From positions 62,001 to 126,000 of the forward strand of contig JADGJL010000008.1 in NCBI GenBank assembly GCA_027600665.1: a stretch of 64,000 bases of DNA, read 5' to 3'. Positions 47,457 to 58,303 of the stretch are shown here, piece after piece. The notes beneath the pieces were generated by a model. That model was given only the letters and a program-made list of their open reading frames with translations, was not told the DNA's origin and ran no database searches. A program made the translations under genes and the position numbers. The DNA is from Irineochytrium annulatum (taxonomy: Eukaryota > Chytridiomycota > Chytridiomycetes > Chytridiales > Chytridiaceae). Positions within the stretch are counted from its first letter, which is position 1. Each line of letters begins with the position of its first letter.

Positions 47457-47471
47457 TGGTAACGCTTTCAA
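47457..47471 (-). promoter_or_regulatory. cre site in the leader of the giant secreted protein gene
   Basis: The reverse strand reads TTGAAAGCGTTACCA, a full match to the cre consensus. It lies between the predicted transcription start near 47545 and the ATG, where CcpA would act as a roadblock. Confidence 0.7.
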
Positions 47472-47551: not shown

Positions 47552-47614
47552 ATCTTAGCAGTCTCAACACCGTGAAATTTCTTTCATTTTAAGAATTTCT
47601 TATACGATTTTAAG
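47552..47614 (-). promoter_or_regulatory. Promoter with shared 63-bp activator element, copy 1
   Basis: Minus strand: conserved block 47614-47591 (core AAGAAATTCTT), a second half-site AGAAATTT at 47582-47575 (18-base period), then an extended -10 TGC-TAAGAT (47560-47552). No good -35 box is seen, as expected for an activated promoter. The same layout occurs at 58241-58303. Confidence 0.75.
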
Positions 47615-47731: not shown

Positions 47732-48940
47732 TTATAATGGCGGCTGCACTAATAACAACTTTCCAAGCTGAATGACCGTTTGATCATACCAATCCGGATG
47801 CTGCTGAACATGTGCGATACTTCTTACATTGCCACTTGCTTCAAACACGGCCGCTTTGTCTGTCTTCTCGTGATCGATCTCGAAGCGAACGGTATGTTTC
47901 CCATTGGGTAGTTCTGGCAAGAAAATATATTGATTTCGATTATGATCGTTATAGGGTGTGAACCGATCGATAACAATCGGTTCCTCTCCATCCACCGACA
48001 CCTTCAATCTGCCAGAATCCGGCCCCCCGATATCAAATAAGCCGATGTGGGTTCCCTCAAATTCCACTATGATCGTCTCACCGGGATCAACTGCTCGCCA
48101 CAGACCGGGGAACAACCAATCATACTCGCGCACTAAGGCAAAATCATCGGGAGTCATGTAGGACCATCCTGCGGAAAAATGAGTAAGACGATCCAGTGGC
48201 AGCATGGTTGCATACTCCCAAGGATTGGCCGGAACCAGAGTGTCTTGCGGCAAATGATGTTCCACTTTTCCCACATGATCTCGAAGTTCGCTCATTTTCT
48301 CAAATGACCGGGTGATGGTGTCCGTGTAAATCTGATGTCCTTCGGGAATCGTTGGATGGATCGAATCATGTGTAAAAATAATGGCACCGGGAATGGATAC
48401 ATCTGCACTTGAGGTGAAAATGAGCTTTCCACCTGAAACCAATTGACTGACCGCCACGCCCAGATGAATCGAAGGAATGTCGTAATAGTCGGCAACTTCC
48501 TCTTGCATAAGTGCACCCTTCTGGTACTCTCCGGATTGAAATAAGTTCAAATCCCGCTCCTTAATCGTATATACGAACAGGATATCGGTGAACAGGCTGT
48601 GCTTGCGGATCTGTCGGACAATACCTTCGATTCGCGCCTTGGATTCGGGGACTCCCCCATCATTGCCAACAAATTCAACAAAAACGAGATCAGGCTGATG
48701 ACGCAGTACATCGGCCTGCAAACGAGCGCAGCCGAGGTCCGATCCTGTCCCATCAATGCCTGCGTTCACAGCGCGGATATCGGCATGGGGATATTGCCCT
48801 CGCAGCCAATCGGCCGTCATGACTCTGTATCCTTCAGAACGTGTATTACTGCCGCCAAAATAAACGATGGTCACAGGTTCCCCATTTTCCAACTTCTGAA
48901 TGACATTAGGAAGCCCTCTCCGAGGAAAAAATTCTTTCAT
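47732..48940 (-). CDS. SGNH/GDSL-family hydrolase with C-terminal beta domain
   Basis: A 402-residue protein without a signal peptide. The SGNH blocks are intact: nucleophile Ser in VYFGGSNTR, Gly in VNAGIDGTGSDLG, Asn in EFVGNDGG, and the Asp/His pair in THDSIHPTIPEGH. The last about 140 residues form a beta-sandwich. It is probably a carbohydrate esterase removing acetyl or other acyl groups from imported oligosaccharides. The ATG at 48940 is used; a GTG at 48961 overlapping the upstream stop is the alternative. It follows the FAD-dependent oxidoreductase gene directly, so the two are co-translated. Confidence 0.82.
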   Translation of the reverse strand: MKEFFPRRGLPNVIQKLENGEPVTIVYFGGSNTRSEGYRVMTADWLRGQYPHADIRAVNAGIDGTGSDLGCARLQADVLRHQPDLVFVEFVGNDGGVPESKARIEGIVRQIRKHSLFTDILFVYTIKERDLNLFQSGEYQKGALMQEEVADYYDIPSIHLGVAVSQLVSGGKLIFTSSADVSIPGAIIFTHDSIHPTIPEGHQIYTDTITRSFEKMSELRDHVGKVEHHLPQDTLVPANPWEYATMLPLDRLTHFSAGWSYMTPDDFALVREYDWLFPGLWRAVDPGETIIVEFEGTHIGLFDIGGPDSGRLKVSVDGEEPIVIDRFTPYNDHNRNQYIFLPELPNGKHTVRFEIDHEKTDKAAVFEASGNVRSIAHVQQHPDWYDQTVIQLGKLLLVQPPL

Positions 48941-48957
48941 CGCAACTTCACCCGACC

Positions 48958-51174
48958 TCACTTCGCATTTTTAGGAGCAAAAAATTTCACTGCAAACACT
49001 TCATAATAAGGTGAGCCATACGTTGCACAGAAATCAAACCTGATCTGGCTTACACCTTGCACATTCACCTGATGTTTATTCAACGAAAGATAATTTCCGC
49101 GGACTTTAATTTCACTCTTGATCCCGTCCTCTAACGTTAAGGTCACATCATAATCCTGAATCAGTGGCTCTATTGGATCGTCAAAATGCTCCAAATTCAG
49201 CTCCGAATTGAAGACAAGATGAATTTCATCCAGATTCTTGGGGCTTGCAAAATCAAATTCCAACCATTCCCGTCCTTCTGTACGTTCCGAAATCCAACCG
49301 TTTGGCAGACCATAAGGTCTGGAGAATCCGTTGACGACATTCGCGGGATTATACATATCCTGGGATGGTTTCAGATCCTTGAAGCAAATGCTCTTATTAA
49401 GCTTCTTCAGCCTGGATGGCTCTTCCGGTTTATAAAGGAAGCTCACCGCTCCAGTCATTTTCTCATCATTGGTGTGTATCGCAAGGCTCTCTGAACCTTC
49501 CATTACGATGTAGACCTTGTCATCAGCCGGTTTCTCACAGCCCAGGTCCAGCGTAATCCAGTCATCGTAACCCGCTGAAATAAGCAAGGGATATTTTTTA
49601 AACTCGCTGGTGGGAATATAGTTTTCCTTCCGTTCCCCGCCGTACAGCTTCACTTGCAGCGTTTCTGATTGCTCGGATCTGTTTTTAATTTTGATCTGCA
49701 CACTTTCAGCCACGGATGTCTGAATCGGCAAGACCAAACATAACGCTTTCTCCAAGGAGATCTCTTCGGTTGCATGAAGATGTTCATAGTTTCGCTGAGA
49801 TGAGGCACGAATCGTTAATCCATCTGCGAAATAACGATCCAACGGCTCTTGAAGCCCTACAATCGTTTGTCCGTCTCGCAGCAGCTGCGCCTGAAGCTCA
49901 CCCATATGGGCTTTGACGAGAGCCGCAGGGTCTGCCTCATATTTTACGCATAACGCAGCAGCCGTTCCTACAGCCTGCCCCATACAACCACAGGTTGCCA
50001 TGACCCTTGTAGACCCAAAAGCCACATGGGTAGCGCTTATATTGCGGCCAGCGAACATGAGATTGGGAATGTTGCGTGAAAATAAGCTGCGAAACGGGAT
50101 ATTATACAATCCTGGCACAAAATTCCACGCTGTAGCTGGTCCATCATCGTAGATGCCTTTATTCGCATGCAGATCCATATACCAGCCGCCGACAGATACC
50201 GCATCTTCGAAATGAGGTTTCGCTGTAAGATCGTTTTGAGACAGCATGTGTTCCCCTATGAATCGTCTCGATTCCCGCTTTCCCGGAATTGGGCACACAT
50301 AATCCAGAATGAGATTGTCTACATCATCGAACTCGCCGCTGTTTTTGATATAATCCCAGATTCCGTACACCAATTTTCGCAGTTCCAATGCAATGTCTTC
50401 ATTATTCTTGATAATATCCATATGTCCGCCGTATTCCAGCCACCACAATCCGCCAAGCCCGTTGATTTTCCTTGGAAAAGACCGATGGTTTAATCCTTTT
50501 CGGATACTATCAAAAAAGTCCAGCTTGGTAATATCATACGCAAAGCCTGGCCTTTTGTAAGGAACGGGATAGTCTACGTCACGGGCTTGAAACAGAATCG
50601 TATCGCCCATCGTGTAATGATCCGCCACTTCTGGAGCGAGCTCCTCTTGGTATTCATGCTTCGCCTCTCTTCCCCATCGGAAGTGAGCGCCTGCTTGGTA
50701 TCCAACAATTCCATCCCCGGAGCAATCGATGTAGGTTGAGCTTTCAAAACGAAATTTTCTCTCGGAAGCCAATTGAAGGCCCTCCACCCATTGGATTCTG
50801 CCGTTCTCCATACCCGTTTCATGTACGCATGTGTTCAGGAATAGAGAAATGTTGGGCTCATCATAAACCATGTCGAGTAAGACTGTATCGGAAAGTGAAA
50901 GCATCAGCTTCTTGTTGTATAACGGATTGTAATGAAATATCTTCAGCTTCAGTTCTTCTATCAACCCGCCCTCTCGAGCATAGTAGGATGGACTGTTTCC
51001 GAGATAAGCCGACCCGTTGATATGCACTCTGACCTCGCTGCTCGCATTTCCCCCTAGAACTGGCCGATCATTAATAAGTGAAACCTTCAGACCTTGGCGT
51101 GCAGCTGCAATGGCAGCGCATATCCCTGCAATACCTCCACCTACGACGGTTACATCAGCTTTTATAGACTCCAT
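48958..51174 (-). CDS. FAD-dependent oxidoreductase (FAD_oxidored family)
   Basis: A 738-residue flavoprotein. The dinucleotide-binding motif VVGGGIAGICAAIAAA starts near residue 9, followed by VLGGNASSEVRVHI, a family signature. FAD contacts continue in YIDCSGDGIVGYQAGA and MFAGRNISATHVAFGSTRVM. Residues about 560-738 form a C-terminal beta-sandwich like discoidin domains. There is no signal peptide. Proteins of this family are common in polysaccharide loci, often labelled xanthan lyase-associated, but few have known reactions. The ATG at 51174 has GGAGG eight bases upstream. It likely oxidises or isomerises a sugar taken up by the neighbouring transporter. Confidence 0.82.
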   Translation of the reverse strand: MESIKADVTVVGGGIAGICAAIAAARQGLKVSLINDRPVLGGNASSEVRVHINGSAYLGNSPSYYAREGGLIEELKLKIFHYNPLYNKKLMLSLSDTVLLDMVYDEPNISLFLNTCVHETGMENGRIQWVEGLQLASERKFRFESSTYIDCSGDGIVGYQAGAHFRWGREAKHEYQEELAPEVADHYTMGDTILFQARDVDYPVPYKRPGFAYDITKLDFFDSIRKGLNHRSFPRKINGLGGLWWLEYGGHMDIIKNNEDIALELRKLVYGIWDYIKNSGEFDDVDNLILDYVCPIPGKRESRRFIGEHMLSQNDLTAKPHFEDAVSVGGWYMDLHANKGIYDDGPATAWNFVPGLYNIPFRSLFSRNIPNLMFAGRNISATHVAFGSTRVMATCGCMGQAVGTAAALCVKYEADPAALVKAHMGELQAQLLRDGQTIVGLQEPLDRYFADGLTIRASSQRNYEHLHATEEISLEKALCLVLPIQTSVAESVQIKIKNRSEQSETLQVKLYGGERKENYIPTSEFKKYPLLISAGYDDWITLDLGCEKPADDKVYIVMEGSESLAIHTNDEKMTGAVSFLYKPEEPSRLKKLNKSICFKDLKPSQDMYNPANVVNGFSRPYGLPNGWISERTEGREWLEFDFASPKNLDEIHLVFNSELNLEHFDDPIEPLIQDYDVTLTLEDGIKSEIKVRGNYLSLNKHQVNVQGVSQIRFDFCATYGSPYYEVFAVKFFAPKNAK

Positions 51175-51285
51175 TTTGATAACCTCCATGATTAGATGCT
51201 CCTATCATGGTAATGGTTTTGGCCCGTTTTTTTTTACAGGATTTCACGAAAAAATCATACATTTTTTGCATCCTTATTGGGATTC

Positions 51286-52896
51286 CTACCGTGTCATTTT
51301 GATCCGGTATTGCTTAGGTGTATCGCCGGTATATTCTTTGAAAAGTTTGCAAAAGTAACCTTCATTGACTATGCCTACTTCCTCGCACAATTCCAATAAA
51401 GAATAATCCTTCACATGTAACAACTCGAGAGCGAGATTGATTTTTTTACGGTTGATGTAGCTAATCACACCTTCGTTCATTGTTTTTTTGAATAAGCTGC
51501 TAAAATACGATGGCGCTAAATTCACTTCCTCCGCAATGGCCTCCAGCGTTAAACGCTGTTTCAGGTTTTTCTCTATAAAATGAATAGCATTCATGATTTC
51601 TGCACGATGTAATCGTTGGCCTGCATGCACGTATTCAAATGTGAAGTCGCCAATATAGGCGAGCTGCTCTTGAAATGTCATATATTCCATGGGGAATTCA
51701 GCTGCTTCCATAGCCAGCTTGTTCCCTGATTTAAACTTTACGGTAATTTCTCTGTACAAGTCTCTAATCATGGGCGCCATGACGGACTTGTGGATTTTAT
51801 GGTCCGAAACAAATTGCAGCAGTTCGGCAAGTGCACTGTCGAGCTCTTCCTTGGAAATCTTTCGTTTCAGCCGTATAAGAAAATCATTCACCTGCTGCTG
51901 AAAGTCTGCTTTTTTGTCATTATGGTATTGGAACCGATGCATCGGTGTTTTGACTACTTTTTCGGTATGATAATAGAAATCCTCACTCACATTTGTAGCT
52001 TCCGTGTACGCCTGTTTGATCGATTCCCATCCTCGGTGTGGACCTCCAAAAGCGACGGATACCCTTTGATTCAAATATTGATGCAAATGAGAGATGATCT
52101 GCCCGCCCAAGGATAGGCAAGCGTATTCCGTTTCCATATCACTGCGGTTATTTTCCCAGGATAAAAAGCCAATAAACCGACTATCGGACAGATCCGCAGC
52201 TACACCGCTACCGCCACTCATCACCGTTTCTTCGATGATATTCGTAATCGCATATTTCAAGATGTTTTGATCTGCGGCAGCGTATTCGTTTCGGAAACTT
52301 TCATACGTATTCATCTCAACGATGAAGCAGCAATAGTTGGCTTGAAAGAAATGAAACTGCATACGATTGGCAAAATCCGATGCCCGATGAGAAGGAATTT
52401 CACCACGGATCAATTCGTTAAAAAATTGCTTGCGAACTCTATATTTATTTTCAAGTACGGATACGTTTAACGAATGAAATTCCGCTTCTTTTTTTTCAAA
52501 CTCATCTAAAATTCCAGCTGCCTTATCCAACGCTCGAGTCAGATCAGCTTCCCTTAGCGGAACCTTTACAATGTACTCCAATACGTTGGCTTGAATAGCT
52601 CGCTGGGCGTATTCAAAGGATGAATAAGCGGTCAGAAGTATGTACTGGGTATGGGGGAGCTCCACTTTTAACTGCTCAATCATGGAGATTCCGTCCATTC
52701 GCGGCATGACAATATCGGATATAACGATATCCGGCTTAAGTTTGATGATCTCCTCGATCCCATTCAGCCCATTATTCGCTTTTCCCACCAGAACAAATCG
52801 TCTATCCCTATGAGAGAGCTCACTAAAAAACAATTCCAATCGTTGAATGATCAGGTCTTCATCGTCAACAATGAAGCAGGTATACTCTTTCCCCAT
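51286..52896 (-). CDS. YesN-type response regulator with AraC DNA-binding domain
   Basis: A 536-residue regulator. The receiver (1-125) has phospho-acceptor Asp61 in VISDIVMPRMDG and the acidic pocket VDDED. A helical linker of about 300 residues follows, then the AraC double helix-turn-helix (about 432-532; VNLAPSYFSSLFKKTMN, EVGIVNEGYFCKLFKEY, TPKQYR). The start overlaps the kinase stop by one base (TAATG). It should activate the locus when the kinase senses its sugar. The element shared at 47552 and 58241 is its likely target. Confidence 0.92.
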   Translation of the reverse strand: MGKEYTCFIVDDEDLIIQRLELFFSELSHRDRRFVLVGKANNGLNGIEEIIKLKPDIVISDIVMPRMDGISMIEQLKVELPHTQYILLTAYSSFEYAQRAIQANVLEYIVKVPLREADLTRALDKAAGILDEFEKKEAEFHSLNVSVLENKYRVRKQFFNELIRGEIPSHRASDFANRMQFHFFQANYCCFIVEMNTYESFRNEYAAADQNILKYAITNIIEETVMSGGSGVAADLSDSRFIGFLSWENNRSDMETEYACLSLGGQIISHLHQYLNQRVSVAFGGPHRGWESIKQAYTEATNVSEDFYYHTEKVVKTPMHRFQYHNDKKADFQQQVNDFLIRLKRKISKEELDSALAELLQFVSDHKIHKSVMAPMIRDLYREITVKFKSGNKLAMEAAEFPMEYMTFQEQLAYIGDFTFEYVHAGQRLHRAEIMNAIHFIEKNLKQRLTLEAIAEEVNLAPSYFSSLFKKTMNEGVISYINRKKINLALELLHVKDYSLLELCEEVGIVNEGYFCKLFKEYTGDTPKQYRIKMTR

Positions 52897-54635
52897 TATG
52901 CATCTCCTTTTTGCAATTCTGCCGGGAATAATGCGCGTATGCGGGTTATTTCCTTAGGTATGCTAATGATCTCCAGTCCGAATTGATCTCCGTAGTGAAG
53001 TCTTATTCGACCATGAATATTATTCATTCCGATCCTTTTTCTTTTTACTTCCTCTTCACTCGGTTCTGAGATTAAAATATGCTTTAATTGGTCGGCCGGA
53101 ATTCCCTCACCTTGGTCAACAACTTCTATGATCACAATACCGTCTTCCCTGTACGCATGAATCGTAATAGGTCCCTCTATCTCGCCTCCGTTATAACCAT
53201 GGAAGATACTATTCTCCACAAGGGGCTGCAACAACATTCGGAAAACCGGAAAATCCATTAATCCTGCTTCGATATGTTCAATCAAATTGAAGTTTCTGTT
53301 ATACCGAATGTTCTGGATCTCGATATAGTCCGCTACATTGCGTAATTCCTGGCGTAGGGAAACCTTCTCAGAAGCATCGTCTATCCCATATTCCAATAAT
53401 GAAATGAGCGACCCGATTACCACATCGACTTTCTCTATTTGTCCAAGACGTATCACATTGCTGATCGAACCAAGCGTGTTATACAGAAAATGTGGGTTTA
53501 TTTGAGACTGTAATACCTGAATTTCCAGCTTCCGCTCAAGTTCATTATGAAGCTCGGCTCGGCGAATCAGTTCAACAATTTGCTGTAACATACGATCAAA
53601 TGCGCGTGAAAGATCTCCAAACTCATCGTTTCGGTTAATGGTTACTGTCGTTGTGAGGATGCCTTGTTCGACCTGTTTCATTTTTCTTTTGAGTGTATAT
53701 AGTGGTTTTCTTATAAATTTGGCAACCATGAAAGAAATGAACAAACTTAACAGAAGACCTGCAGCCAGAAGCTCAATATAATAGGTTTCCAATCTGGACA
53801 AAGCTGCTTTCAAACGTGATTCATCATTAACGGAGACAATGGTCCAGTTGAATTTCTCCGTTGGTTTCTTCAAAAGAGAGACGGGAATACCATCCTTCGT
53901 ATGCAGTTGAAGATTTGTTTCTGACGTATCCAAAATTTCTTCCGCTGACGTCTCCCCGATCGAAAACGTATGATCTTGAATACTCAGGGGTCCTTTATTT
54001 TCAGAAAATCCGGCAATGATCTTACCTGAGGCGGTGATCAGAGCCAGATTCATTTGTTCCTGTTTATTAATCTTGAACAAGGTTTCTTCAATGGCATTTA
54101 GATCCAGATCAACCGCAATGGCCATAGGAAACGGAGCACCGTTCAGATAACGAACCATCGTAACAGTCCAGCCGGAGTACTTTGATTTGTATGGTTCACT
54201 AACAAAGGTAGTCCTTCTATTTTTGTCAGCCGCATCATATAAAGGTTCTCTTTCCGATAAAGGTTCATCGAATATTCGTGTAGGTGCACTTCCGCCCAGA
54301 ATGGATAAATCGCTTTTGATCAAATAAATATTACTAACATAATTACTGTTGAGTTCATACAGTTCTCTTAATTGCTCTTTAATCACTTCGGTATGGTTAA
54401 TATTAGCTTTCACCGAAGTTTCAACCGAGAAGAGGATCGTTTGGAAGGAGTAAAAGTTAACGGTGAAATACTGGTCCACCTTGTCTAATATTTGATTGGT
54501 GTAATAAATATCATTGGTTCGTATTTCTTTTTGGACATAGCGATAAGATAATTGGCTTATCAAGAGGATGCAGCCCAATACAAATGCAAACACGATAAAA
54601 AATAATTTTAAAGGCAAGCTGATTCTTCTTCGCAT
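52896..54635 (-). CDS. YesM-type sensor histidine kinase
   Basis: A 579-residue membrane kinase. Transmembrane segments lie at about 10-30 and 288-312, with an extracellular sensor of about 250 residues between. A HAMP domain follows (about 312-365), then the His_kinase domain with His382 in QINPHFLYNTLGS, and a HATPase domain (VVDQGEGIPADQL, RIGMNNIHGRI). It is coupled to the response regulator by a one-base overlap and follows the binding-protein gene by 93 bp. Such kinases often sense sugars through the associated ABC binding protein. Confidence 0.92.
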   Translation of the reverse strand: MRRRISLPLKLFFIVFAFVLGCILLISQLSYRYVQKEIRTNDIYYTNQILDKVDQYFTVNFYSFQTILFSVETSVKANINHTEVIKEQLRELYELNSNYVSNIYLIKSDLSILGGSAPTRIFDEPLSEREPLYDAADKNRRTTFVSEPYKSKYSGWTVTMVRYLNGAPFPMAIAVDLDLNAIEETLFKINKQEQMNLALITASGKIIAGFSENKGPLSIQDHTFSIGETSAEEILDTSETNLQLHTKDGIPVSLLKKPTEKFNWTIVSVNDESRLKAALSRLETYYIELLAAGLLLSLFISFMVAKFIRKPLYTLKRKMKQVEQGILTTTVTINRNDEFGDLSRAFDRMLQQIVELIRRAELHNELERKLEIQVLQSQINPHFLYNTLGSISNVIRLGQIEKVDVVIGSLISLLEYGIDDASEKVSLRQELRNVADYIEIQNIRYNRNFNLIEHIEAGLMDFPVFRMLLQPLVENSIFHGYNGGEIEGPITIHAYREDGIVIIEVVDQGEGIPADQLKHILISEPSEEEVKRKRIGMNNIHGRIRLHYGDQFGLEIISIPKEITRIRALFPAELQKGDA

Positions 54636-54728: not shown

Positions 54729-56315
54729 TTACTTGATGAGGCCGGCGTCTTTAAATTGCTGGATGGCTGTTTCCTTATATTTCTGCATATCAAACTTGGT
54801 ATCCAACGTTTGGAGGAAATTGTCCCAGTTGGAAAGAGGTTCTTTGCCCGTCATAAATTTGACCAAGCTTTCATTAATGAACCGTTGGCGGTCTGCATCC
54901 AAGGTGTCGCTCGGGTCTGGGGTCAATAAATTACCGGGTAACGTTGGCCCCACATATTGCTGATTGTTCTTGAAGGCTTCCGCTGTCTTCGGATTCTGGA
55001 AGCTGAAGTACTCCGCATCATCACCGCGCCGCGGCATTCTATAATGATCGACCCACAGGTACTTCTCTTTCATTTCCTTCGATAACTCGGAGGTTTTATT
55101 TTTGATTTTGCCATCCACCACATCCCAATGAATCCCTTTGATTCCGTATGCAAAATTCGGATAGGCTTCTTCATCCGTAAAGAGATAATTCAGCATGGAC
55201 AAGATGCGAATGATTTTGTCCTCGTCCGCTTTTGCAGATATGGCCCATGAATTGCCCTGGAACGATTTTCTCTCTACAATCTGATCGCCGTAAGGACCTT
55301 TCATCGGAGGAATAACGATCCATTCCGGCACCTCTCCACTAATTTCTTTCATTTTCTGTTGATAATCCGGTTCCAGCCTGCGGGCATCTCTGATCATGAA
55401 GCCAACTTTACCCTTAAACATCTTTTGGTCCAACAGATCAGGTGAATTCATCGTCACCCAATCCGGATCTACGACTTTGGCTGCCATCATTTTGTTAATG
55501 TAGGCAAGTGCCTCTTTCATTTTGGGATCGATAAACAGGAATACCGGTTCATTATCTTTTATCTCAACGGCCGAAGGAGGATTAACGCCAAACATCCACA
55601 TCAGGCTATCAAAGCCGTAGGTTTGCAGATTGCCTTCTTTATTCATACCGCCGATGAATCCGTACGTATCGTTTTTGCCATTCCCGTCCGGATCTTTCTC
55701 TGTAAAGGCTTTCATAACTTCGAACAACTCGTCAGGTGTCGTTGGCACATCCATATTCAACTTTTTCAGCCAATCGTTACGGATGAAGAAGCTACGACTG
55801 ATACCGTTTACATTATCATAGCCTGGAACTCCGATCGTTTTCCCTTGATAGGACATCGCCTCCCAGGAGTCATTGCCAAACCGTTTCTGTAATTCAGGAA
55901 ACTGATCCAGATAAGGGGTCAAATCCGCAAGCACGCCTTGGTCGTAATATTGTGCAAGATCAGCACGACTCTTCAAGAAGATCAAGTCTGGAATATCCCC
56001 GCCTGCAATGAGCGTGTTCAGTTTGGTTGTTGCTTGACCCGCTTGAGGAATCATCATATCCAAGTCGATGTTCATCTCTTCTTCCAACATTTGGCGTTGA
56101 ATATCTTCATCCCGTGGAGGTACTGGAGCAGCAGCATTGAACGTACCTTGGTTAAACATGGAGATCTTCATTTTGGTTGCAAACTGGCCAGACTGGTCTT
56201 GCACATTACTCGAGGTTGTCGATGTAACTTCTTCATTTCCCCCACAACCCGACAATAGCGTTCCAAGTCCTAAAATTGCCGACAGAATAACAAACGAAAA
56301 CTTTCTACGCTGCAT
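54729..56315 (-). CDS. LplA-type sugar-binding lipoprotein
   Basis: A 528-residue extracellular solute-binding protein. The lipobox LLSGC puts the lipidated Cys at residue 24. The mature part resembles the long LplA/YtcQ family, with PEWIVIPPMKGPYGD and AISAKADEDKIIRILSMLNYLF. It should deliver oligosaccharides to the two permeases encoded just upstream. AAAGGAGAGG precedes the ATG. It lies between the permeases and the two-component genes in one minus-strand unit. Confidence 0.92.
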   Translation of the reverse strand: MQRRKFSFVILSAILGLGTLLSGCGGNEEVTSTTSSNVQDQSGQFATKMKISMFNQGTFNAAAPVPPRDEDIQRQMLEEEMNIDLDMMIPQAGQATTKLNTLIAGGDIPDLIFLKSRADLAQYYDQGVLADLTPYLDQFPELQKRFGNDSWEAMSYQGKTIGVPGYDNVNGISRSFFIRNDWLKKLNMDVPTTPDELFEVMKAFTEKDPDGNGKNDTYGFIGGMNKEGNLQTYGFDSLMWMFGVNPPSAVEIKDNEPVFLFIDPKMKEALAYINKMMAAKVVDPDWVTMNSPDLLDQKMFKGKVGFMIRDARRLEPDYQQKMKEISGEVPEWIVIPPMKGPYGDQIVERKSFQGNSWAISAKADEDKIIRILSMLNYLFTDEEAYPNFAYGIKGIHWDVVDGKIKNKTSELSKEMKEKYLWVDHYRMPRRGDDAEYFSFQNPKTAEAFKNNQQYVGPTLPGNLLTPDPSDTLDADRQRFINESLVKFMTGKEPLSNWDNFLQTLDTKFDMQKYKETAIQQFKDAGLIK

Positions 56316-56380: not shown

Positions 56381-57250
56381 TTAACCTTTAACCGATCCCA
56401 GGAGCACACCTTTGGTAAAATGCTTTTGCAAAAATGGATAAACGATCAAAATCGGGACCGTAGTCACAACAACTGTAGCCATTTGCACAGCGAACGTACT
56501 GACAGCTCCGGAATTGGCGAGCGAATCAGCGCTTTGCGTTGCGACGTTAAGCAGGATATTGCGCAAAATCACTTGAAGTGGCATGTAGTTGGAATCATTG
56601 ATATATACAATGGCATCGAAATAACTGTTCCAATGCCCGACTGCGTAAAACAAGGAAATGGTTGAAAGCACGGGTAACGACAGAGGTAAAATGATCCGCC
56701 ATAACGTCTGAAGCTCACTGGCACCGTCTACCCTCGCGGATTCCTCGATTTCACCAGGTAGTTGCTCAAAAAATCCTTTAATGATCACCAGATTAAATGC
56801 ACTAATGAGATTGGGAATAATCAATACCCACGGACTATTTAACAATCCGAGAGAACGAATTAGTAGATAGGTCGGAATTAACCCCCCGCTGAACATCATG
56901 GTAAATACAATGAAGAGTAAAAACGGACTTCTTCCGGGCAAATATTTTTTGGATAACGGATATGCCGCGATTACTGTAAAAAATACATTTAACGCAGTGC
57001 CTACAATCGTTCGAAACAACGTAATTTTATACGCCTGCCAGATCCCGTGAGAAACGAATACTTCTTTATAGGCCAGAAAAGTAAAGGATTCGGGTATAAT
57101 CACAATCCCTCTTCTTAATACTTCCGATTCTGGCGTTACGGAGACAGCAACCACATAGAGGAAGGGCAGCACACAAAGTAGGGATAACAAAATAAGCATC
57201 ACATAAACGACGGTTTGCCAGACTTTTTCACTGATTGTCATATGGATCAT
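56381..57250 (-). CDS. ABC sugar permease, LplC/YtcP type
   Basis: A 289-residue permease with six membrane segments and the ATPase-coupling EAA loop SARVDGASELQTLWRIILPL near residue 190. The ATG at 57250 is chosen, with GAGGTGG eight bases upstream, over a longer frame into the previous gene. It pairs with the upstream LplB-type permease. No ATPase gene is present, so a shared MsmX-type ATPase encoded elsewhere is expected. Confidence 0.9.
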   Translation of the reverse strand: MIHMTISEKVWQTVVYVMLILLSLLCVLPFLYVVAVSVTPESEVLRRGIVIIPESFTFLAYKEVFVSHGIWQAYKITLFRTIVGTALNVFFTVIAAYPLSKKYLPGRSPFLLFIVFTMMFSGGLIPTYLLIRSLGLLNSPWVLIIPNLISAFNLVIIKGFFEQLPGEIEESARVDGASELQTLWRIILPLSLPVLSTISLFYAVGHWNSYFDAIVYINDSNYMPLQVILRNILLNVATQSADSLANSGAVSTFAVQMATVVVTTVPILIVYPFLQKHFTKGVLLGSVKG

Positions 57251-57263
57251 TCTAAAGACCACC

Positions 57264-58211
57264 TCACCAAATTTGCCCATCGAATTTTTTGGCGAGCTTA
57301 TTCGCTGCCAACACCAAAGCAAATCCGATGACAGCTTTAAACAATCCTACAGCAGTAGCCAAGCCAATCTTGAGACGCTCCAACCCTTCCCGGTATACCC
57401 ATGTGTCAATAATGTCGATCTTCTCCTGGTTAAACGTGTTGGCAAACATGAATATTTGGTCAAAACCCGCATCCAGGATATGGCTTAATTTTAGAATCAG
57501 CATCAGAATAATGACGCCTCGAATGCCAGGTAACGTGATATGCCAGAGCTGTCTCCATTTGGAAGCGCCATCCATTCGAGCAGCTTCATATAAGCTTGGA
57601 TCGATTCCTGCCAAGGCGGCAAGGTACAATATCGCCCCCCATCCAATATCCTTCCATACTTCAGATAAGATGATCAGCAACCTGCCCCAGGCAGGTTCCG
57701 TTAGGAACGATATGGGTTCAAAACCAAAATCCTTCATAATCATGTTAAAGAGACCATCGCCTGGGGCCAGTAATGCCACCATAATTCCATACACAATGAC
57801 CCATGACAGAAAATGAGGTAAATACGTGATGGTCTGTACGATTTTCTTGAACCATTGGCTATACACTTCATTGAGGAGTAAAGCAAGTACGATGGGCGCG
57901 GAGAATCCGAACAATAGCTTATACAGCGATATGATGATCGTATTTTTCATGATGTCCCAGAAATAAACGCCGTTCATAAAATCCGTAAAATTTTTGAATC
58001 CCACCCAGGGGCTATCCCATAGTCCCAAAGCCAGGTTGTAGTTTTTAAAAGCAATCATGATTCCCGCCATAGGAATGTATTTGAACACGGCAAAGTAAAT
58101 TAAGGCTGGTAATAAGAGAGCATACATCACTTTGTGCTTTTGTATTGTCCTGATCCATGACTTTCGCTTTGGGGAGATGGGAACGGCGTCCGCTGCCAAT
58201 TTTGCTTGCAT
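57264..58211 (-). CDS. ABC sugar permease, LplB type
   Basis: A 315-residue permease with six membrane segments. The N-terminus has KVMYALLLPALIYFAVFKYIP, typical of LplB/YteP, and the coupling loop is YEAARMDGASKWRQLWHITL. The ATG at 58211 with GAGGTGAT upstream is chosen. It is the first gene of the minus-strand locus, 13 bases before the second permease, and is driven by the promoter at 58241-58303. Confidence 0.9.
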   Translation of the reverse strand: MQAKLAADAVPISPKRKSWIRTIQKHKVMYALLLPALIYFAVFKYIPMAGIMIAFKNYNLALGLWDSPWVGFKNFTDFMNGVYFWDIMKNTIIISLYKLLFGFSAPIVLALLLNEVYSQWFKKIVQTITYLPHFLSWVIVYGIMVALLAPGDGLFNMIMKDFGFEPISFLTEPAWGRLLIILSEVWKDIGWGAILYLAALAGIDPSLYEAARMDGASKWRQLWHITLPGIRGVIILMLILKLSHILDAGFDQIFMFANTFNQEKIDIIDTWVYREGLERLKIGLATAVGLFKAVIGFALVLAANKLAKKFDGQIW

Positions 58212-58240: not shown

Positions 58241-58303
58241 ATAATAGCACCCGTTTATCGGATAAATTTCTGAAATTTCAAGAATTTCTTATAAGATTTT
58301 AAG
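58241..58303 (-). promoter_or_regulatory. Promoter with shared 63-bp activator element, copy 2
   Basis: Minus strand: conserved block 58303-58280 (23 of 24 bases equal to copy 1), second half-site AGAAATTT at 58271-58264, and extended -10 TGC-TATTAT (58249-58241). The spacing from the block to the -10 box is 33 bases in both copies. It drives the permease genes and probably the genes behind them. Confidence 0.75.

Follow-up and report, generated by a model that had tools for sequence, protein, structure and literature searches.

A conserved promoter element as the probable operator of a YesN-type response regulator at an importer operon and the neighbouring giant secreted-protein gene

In the class II sites of AraC/XylS-type activators, such as XylS at Pm, RhaS and AraC at I1-I2, half-sites are arranged in tandem and the proximal one overlaps the -35 region. 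Among two-component response regulators with a DNA-binding domain of this type, RR07 (TCS07) of Streptococcus pneumoniae, a YesMN-type system, is described, in the part of the work available, to induce glycan-metabolising enzymes (PMC7075642), and the excerpts of a second study give CTWWWWWWAG, 39-60 bases before the start, as a candidate motif of RR07 (PMC11034029). The motifs of pneumococcal RR07 and YesN are candidates or incomplete and unvalidated in these excerpts (PMC11034029, PMC7075642), where a clear repeat for pneumococcal YesN was not found. Carbohydrate clusters of Ruminiclostridium (Clostridium) cellulolyticum likewise have response regulators of the AraC type, XydR and CuaR, according to the accessible sections of the respective papers; the sequence in front of cuaA is a target of activation by CuaR (PMC5663094), and the two promoter regions bound by XydR have repeats in common close to the predicted -35 boxes (PMC3572039). 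In the same sections, the operator consensus of XydR is not settled and expression of xydRS is not regulated by XydR (PMC3572039). A firmly defined YesN-type operator was not found in what could be consulted of the literature on XydR and pneumococcal RR07/YesN. YesN-type regulators are numerous in Paenibacillus, with 76-252 candidate stretches per genus genome on a loose count.

The window, which is the whole stretch of 64,000 nucleotides that was analysed, holds a system of the same kind as those of CuaR, XydR and RR07, with an unusually well-defined probable operator, for which no description was found in the CC-licensed literature. The genes follow each other on the minus strand in the order permB, permC, solute-binding lipoprotein, yesM, yesN, FAD oxidoreductase, SGNH esterase and giant secreted protein (Table 1). 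The regulator combines an N-terminal receiver with a C-terminal AraC double helix-turn-helix and adjoins a YesM-type kinase, as is characteristic for the YesN type, and its relatives in the PDB include 3lsg (yesN) and 6swi. The YesN protein of the window shares 99% identity with its counterpart in genome G076. The assembly from which the window derives (G000) comprises 27 Mb in 1082 contigs, much exceeding one Paenibacillus genome, and is probably mixed or contaminated.

Table 1. Coordinates of genes, proposed promoters and putative regulatory sites of the locus in the window.
Feature	Position	Strand	Domains and remarks
Terminator upstream of P1	58375..58399	-	
P1, element and extended -10 of the importer operon	58241..58303	-	block 58303-58280; half-sites 58289-58282 (AGAAATTC) and 58271-58264 (AGAAATTT); -10 hexamer 58246-58241
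Permease B (LplB-type)	57264..58211	-	BPD_transp_1
Permease C	56381..57322	-	BPD_transp_1
Solute-binding lipoprotein	54729..56315	-	SBP_bac_1
YesM-type sensor kinase	52896..54635	-	His_kinase, HAMP, HATPase_c
YesN-type response regulator with AraC DNA-binding domain, proposed activator	51286..52896	-	Response_reg (3.8e-19), HTH_AraC (1.8e-18), HTH_18 (2.9e-14)
P3, candidate divergent third element before the FAD gene	51207..51269	-	element 51269-51230; 17 bases; TACCAT 51212-51207
FAD-dependent oxidoreductase	48958..51189	-	FAD_oxidored, E 5.7e-86
SGNH/GDSL hydrolase (carbohydrate-esterase-like)	47732..48961	-	Lipase_GDSL_2; CE2_N below cut-off
Terminator hairpin with U-tract that closes the importer operon, immediately ahead of P2	47612..47668	-	-22.2 kcal/mol, z -5.55
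P2, element and extended -10 of the giant secreted-protein gene	47552..47614	-	block 47614-47591; half-sites 47600-47593 (AGAAATTC) and 47582-47575 (AGAAATTT); -10 hexamer 47557-47552
cre-like candidate CcpA site of the giant-gene leader, TTGAAAGCGTTACCA	47457..47471	-	perfect match to WTGNAANCGNWNNCW
Giant secreted protein, 1694 aa	42356..47440	-	golvesin-type domains around a beta-sandwich and (alpha/alpha)6 region

The giant gene, regarded as distant in the original prediction, is instead the next gene, as the last gene of the operon ends at 47732 and is followed by a terminator hairpin at which P2 begins, which provides the giant gene with a promoter of its own. For permB, the probable start, judged by eye from the ribosome-binding site and the -10, is ATG 58211 and not GTG 58250 of the mechanically derived ORF, which is why the -10 of P1 falls within that longer ORF; with ATG 58211 as start, the leader between P1 and permB is very short.

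P1 and P2 share a block of 24 bases with one mismatch and carry the second half-site AGAAATTT 18 bases beyond the first half-site AGAAATTC, exactly as had been predicted for both copies, followed by an extended -10 (TGC-TATTAT at P1 and TGC-TAAGAT at P2) 33 bases after the block. The shared element is real and far above chance. With three mismatches allowed at most, a composite pattern of 30 bases detects P1 and P2 alone in the window and has no match in 100 shuffles, and at the same tolerance a 28-base pattern detects only these two in the entire assembly, while a position-weight score gives z values of 9.8 and 9.4 for the two copies with 4.7 for the next-best position in the window. The bare pair AGAAATT-N11-AGAAATT with up to two mismatches is not enriched (276 matches versus 282 with the reversed control), the exact pairs in that search being P1 and P2 only; the signal therefore resides in the whole element.

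A scan with YesN recovered 54 loci, of which the unrelated L086 was dropped before all counts, so that 53 remained. The order permB before yesN is found in 51 of them, and P1 is present with up to three mismatches in 50 of the 51 and with four in L082. Likewise, P2 was found at up to three mismatches in 39 of the 40 loci in which the esterase gene is followed by the giant gene; L064, the sole such locus devoid of P2, possesses an N-terminally short giant gene, and L063, with a fragmentary giant gene, has a P2 with three mismatches. A second element, even with four mismatches allowed, was not found in the nine loci lacking the giant gene in the fetched stretch, which extends more than 6 kb beyond the esterase gene in eight of them and 4 kb in L061. 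The sequence of L071 is too short for P2 to be judged, and L079, L080 and L082 are rearranged. Where the distance between the esterase gene and P2 is extended to 0.4-1.9 kb (L041, L075, L076, L077 and L085), P2 is still located 166-172 bases from the matched start of the giant gene.

In a conservation profile of 51 P1 and 40 P2 copies, including those of the window and leaving out the rearranged L079, L080 and L082, most positions of the element reach 1.5-2.0 bits and a few are as low as 0.4, compared to 0.0-0.5 bits at -60 to -26 upstream. As the spacer, the -10 and the leader are well conserved too, at P1 above all, the element does not stand out by itself on its downstream side. The larger set of 98 copies, taken from the 53 loci, the window, L141 and L142, has the two half-sites exact in 93 and 94 copies, respectively, and a weaker box midway between them (AAAT in 92, GAAAT in 74), which results in a step of 9 bp. 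The claim of exactly 33 bases between block and -10 holds for both copies of the window and fails as a fixed rule, since P2 normally has 34 in relatives: the gap from AGAAATTT to TGn amounts to 14 in 48 of 51 P1 copies and to 15 in 39 of 40 P2 copies, with the P2 of the window as the only one at 14. Thus, in all 91 copies AGAAATTT ends 14 or 15 bases before TGn, the start sites being predicted only. The absence of a good -35 box was borne out as well, with TTGACA matched at none of its six positions in 91 of the 98 copies when a 17-bp spacer is assumed.

Spread of the element to unrelated promoters was looked for in 75 genus genomes, of which 27 carry it, each in exactly two copies 10.6-11.3 kb apart, with 0 matches for the reversed-pattern control. 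The same 27 genomes encode the YesN ortholog, and it is located between the two copies in every one of them. Extended to 394 family genomes, which include the 75, and with a threshold of 1e-130 for the regulator, the search found the element in 61, the regulator in 63 and both in 60 genomes (reversed-pattern controls again 0), the yesN orthologs of the 60 having at least 67% identity. Such confinement to regulator-encoding genomes, as expected for a regulon-specific operator, has one exception among the 394, genome G271, whose match with three mismatches looks like chance; the three genomes with the regulator only encode homologs of 54, 44 and 41% identity. In 26 genomes picked from those of the 53 loci, two copies were detected in 19, one in four, three in two and four in one, and a control pattern with N5 in place of the N4 spacer gave one match with three mismatches. 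The co-occurrence of element and yesN is partly expected from linkage, and as linkage alone would yield much of it, the rearranged genomes carry the weight.

Two of those, G022 and G023, have the locus split between contigs: one carries the genes for importer, esterase and giant protein with two perfect elements, the other yesM, yesN and the FAD gene behind elements of their own, one of which precedes yesM; each genome has a single YesN match at 1e-60. This evidence in trans comes from two species and perhaps from one rearrangement, in draft assemblies that do not give the distance between the contigs. A further element in G022 (L079, 4579-7594) precedes an ORF with a golvesin fragment and a 704-aa ORF with sub-threshold, lectin-type Pfam matches only, and the operator may hence serve other secreted proteins. 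In G025 the giant gene is positioned upstream of the importer, with an element before each (two and four mismatches). In G383 a different protein, of 1491 aa (L145, 12333-16903), follows the second element; it shares about 25% identity with the giant protein over a part of its length and has no Pfam match, and possibly the enzyme has been replaced under the same control. The sole extra copy outside the known loci in the 26 genomes, on the minus strand at L144 7424 in G013, has two mismatches and no -10; it adjoins a piece of the FAD gene and may be what is left of a second, decayed cluster.

Whether the architecture is general for importer paralogs was considered for G006, which has 143 matches to permease B (E up to 1e-20). 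The idea was rejected; this genome has one copy of the element at up to three mismatches, and paralogs may have other layouts. Among the best 30 of the 143 matches, a TGCTA-type -10 is found near the start in L154 and L178, besides the ortholog L151, and an extended -10 further from the start in several others.

To follow the element beyond close relatives, a softened weight matrix was built from 94 copies. At the 18-kb locus with the 54% identical regulator (L147, genome G131) the two top scores (z 8.0 and 7.3) coincide exactly with the permB and giant promoters, and both positions carry a -10-like sequence at the usual distance. With the 44% and 41% homologs the best score is located just before permB (z 5.1 and 5.4) and is followed by CGCTATCAT or CGCTATGAT; these scores are modest, in L149 and L181 barely above the next-best positions (4.6 and 4.7), and their position adds weight. 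The AraC recognition helices, APSYFSSLFKK and VNEGYFCKLFK, vary little among 11 aligned sequences. By sequence comparison, the element can be traced in diverged form to regulators of as little as 41% identity.

These data also bear on the proposition that some other regulator, with its gene elsewhere, uses the element as its operator, for instance a global binder of AT-rich DNA or a repressor, and that YesN is merely linked. In its favour, AAGAA-N-TTCTT in the first half is palindromic in 60 of the 98 copies, as a repressor operator might be; however, both AGAAATT are exact in 89 of the 98, and the inverted-repeat reading was rejected as the palindrome is kept worse than the direct repeat. A global factor is contradicted by the absence of the element from 330 of the 331 family genomes that have no yesN match at 1e-130, and furthermore the place of the element over a missing -35 suits an activator and a diverged yesN is accompanied by a diverged element. 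We consider control by such another regulator improbable.

Since the element is confined to the locus, co-occurs with yesN, persists in trans and diverges together with the regulator, AraC-type direct half-sites and joint control of both units are well supported by the comparison of sequences. YesN, initially named as the candidate on the basis of its position, is strengthened in this role. Of the proposed single regulon for uptake and secreted depolymerisation, the joint control is likewise retained, and the depolymerisation part rests on a protein fold. We hold with considerable confidence that the element is the operator of YesN, acting as a class II activator and autoregulator at the importer and giant promoters; very probably, P1 and P2 are YesN binding sites that switch both units on together.

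From these features we infer binding, its dependence on phosphorylation, activation over repression and the signal. YesM would sense an extracellular glycan signal and activate YesN by phosphorylation, whereupon YesN would bind as a tandem pair, each AraC domain reading one AGAAATT direct half-site plus the A/T-rich box upstream of it and the pair spanning roughly -69 to -30 with respect to the predicted start. Relative to this predicted start the half-sites are found near -55 to -49 and -37 to -30, a tandem arrangement with the proximal half-site overlapping the -35 region as in class II sites. Because the proximal half-site occupies the -35 position, YesN would substitute for the -35 box and recruit sigma-A polymerase to the extended -10. 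P1 would drive the importer, the two-component system as positive autoregulation, the FAD enzyme and the esterase up to the terminator that ends the unit, and P2 would restart transcription for the giant secreted protein.

The same binding could have the opposite outcome, with YesN repressing and the signal lifting the repression, since polymerase can be kept out through a site over the -35 region; yet 91 of the 98 copies have no -35 to compete for, and activation is the usual role of AraC-type regulators at such sites. As far as the accessible text goes, a reporter in E. coli was switched on by CuaR, the AraC-type regulator in an importer cluster similar to this one (PMC5663094). Repression appears even less probable than a foreign regulator. 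That an ordinary promoter was duplicated within the cluster and kept by recent descent without shared regulation is hardly credible, as, despite the nearly identical block in P1 and P2, the upstream flank is unconserved and the element near-invariant with YesN down to 81% identical, P1 and P2 retain different -10 spacings and different spacers, and the second copy is missing without the giant gene and decayed where that gene has decayed (L063).

As the probable operator of YesN, the element resembles the sites of XylS-Pm, RhaS and AraC I1-I2 in its tandem half-sites for two AraC-type domains, and differs from them by the two-component response regulator, by AGAAATT at 18 bp, in contrast to 21 bp for AraC, and by the extended -10 without a -35. 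CTTATAAG, at 58288-58295 on the minus strand within the P1 element, loosely resembles the candidate RR07 motif as given in the excerpts on the pneumococcal system. In contrast to RR07, which according to those excerpts did not induce its own kinase gene, yesMN is found behind an element here even after the locus has been split.

Two additional sites might refine the control. The consensus of the CcpA cre site is WTGNAANCGNWNNCW, and a cre-like match to it, a candidate site, is restricted to the leader of the giant gene, with 37 of 40 P2 regions and 0 of 51 P1 regions carrying one. Judged by this consensus, preferred sugars would silence the costly secreted protein and spare the importer. The other site, P3, may be a third, weaker YesN site. 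Each of 55 gaps between yesN and the FAD gene contains one TA[AC]CATGA, at a constant distance from a GAAAT-type box in 51 of the 53 measurable gaps, and the P3 consensus matches that of P1 and P2 at 21 of 40 positions (shuffle fraction 0.006; in eight single loci 0.001-0.011 in seven and 0 of 3000 in L082). Tentatively, and with somewhat less than an even chance in our estimation, the locus would define a full YesN-type operator, in which a GAAAT-type box recurs every 9 bp, three times in all, and is recognised by two tandem AraC domains set 18 bp apart that replace the -35; this operator would change stepwise with the regulator from 99% to 41% identity and have a weaker third copy before the FAD gene.

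The giant protein is likely carbohydrate-active as judged from its modelled structure. The model of residues 345-1265 (pLDDT 88.7, pTM 0.91) consists of a beta-sandwich, an (alpha/alpha)6 barrel and further beta domains, the first two being considered as a possible sign of a polysaccharide lyase like BACCELL_00875, and its fold matches, among them a polysaccharide lyase (5nok/5no8), GH76 and 2-epimerases, are spread over epimerases, glycosidases and lyases. It is from this fold that a depolymerising role is suggested. Pfam recognises golvesin domains and a sub-threshold GH127 match, an NCBIfam search of the protein gave no match, and sequence relatives occur in Paenibacillus, Cohnella and actinobacteria.

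The logic of the locus, with an activator over the -35, autoregulation and a catabolite site at the enzyme gene, is already familiar. It links a family of uncharacterised secreted proteins with the importer and the sensor that belong to it, and it offers a regulator with its probable operator, a regulon of one locus, a natural arrangement in trans and a series of diverged pairs, by which the specificity of the YesN class becomes directly testable. If the tentative full operator holds true, such regulator-operator pairs of this lineage could serve to work out which sequences the many uncharacterised YesN paralogs of Paenibacillus recognise.
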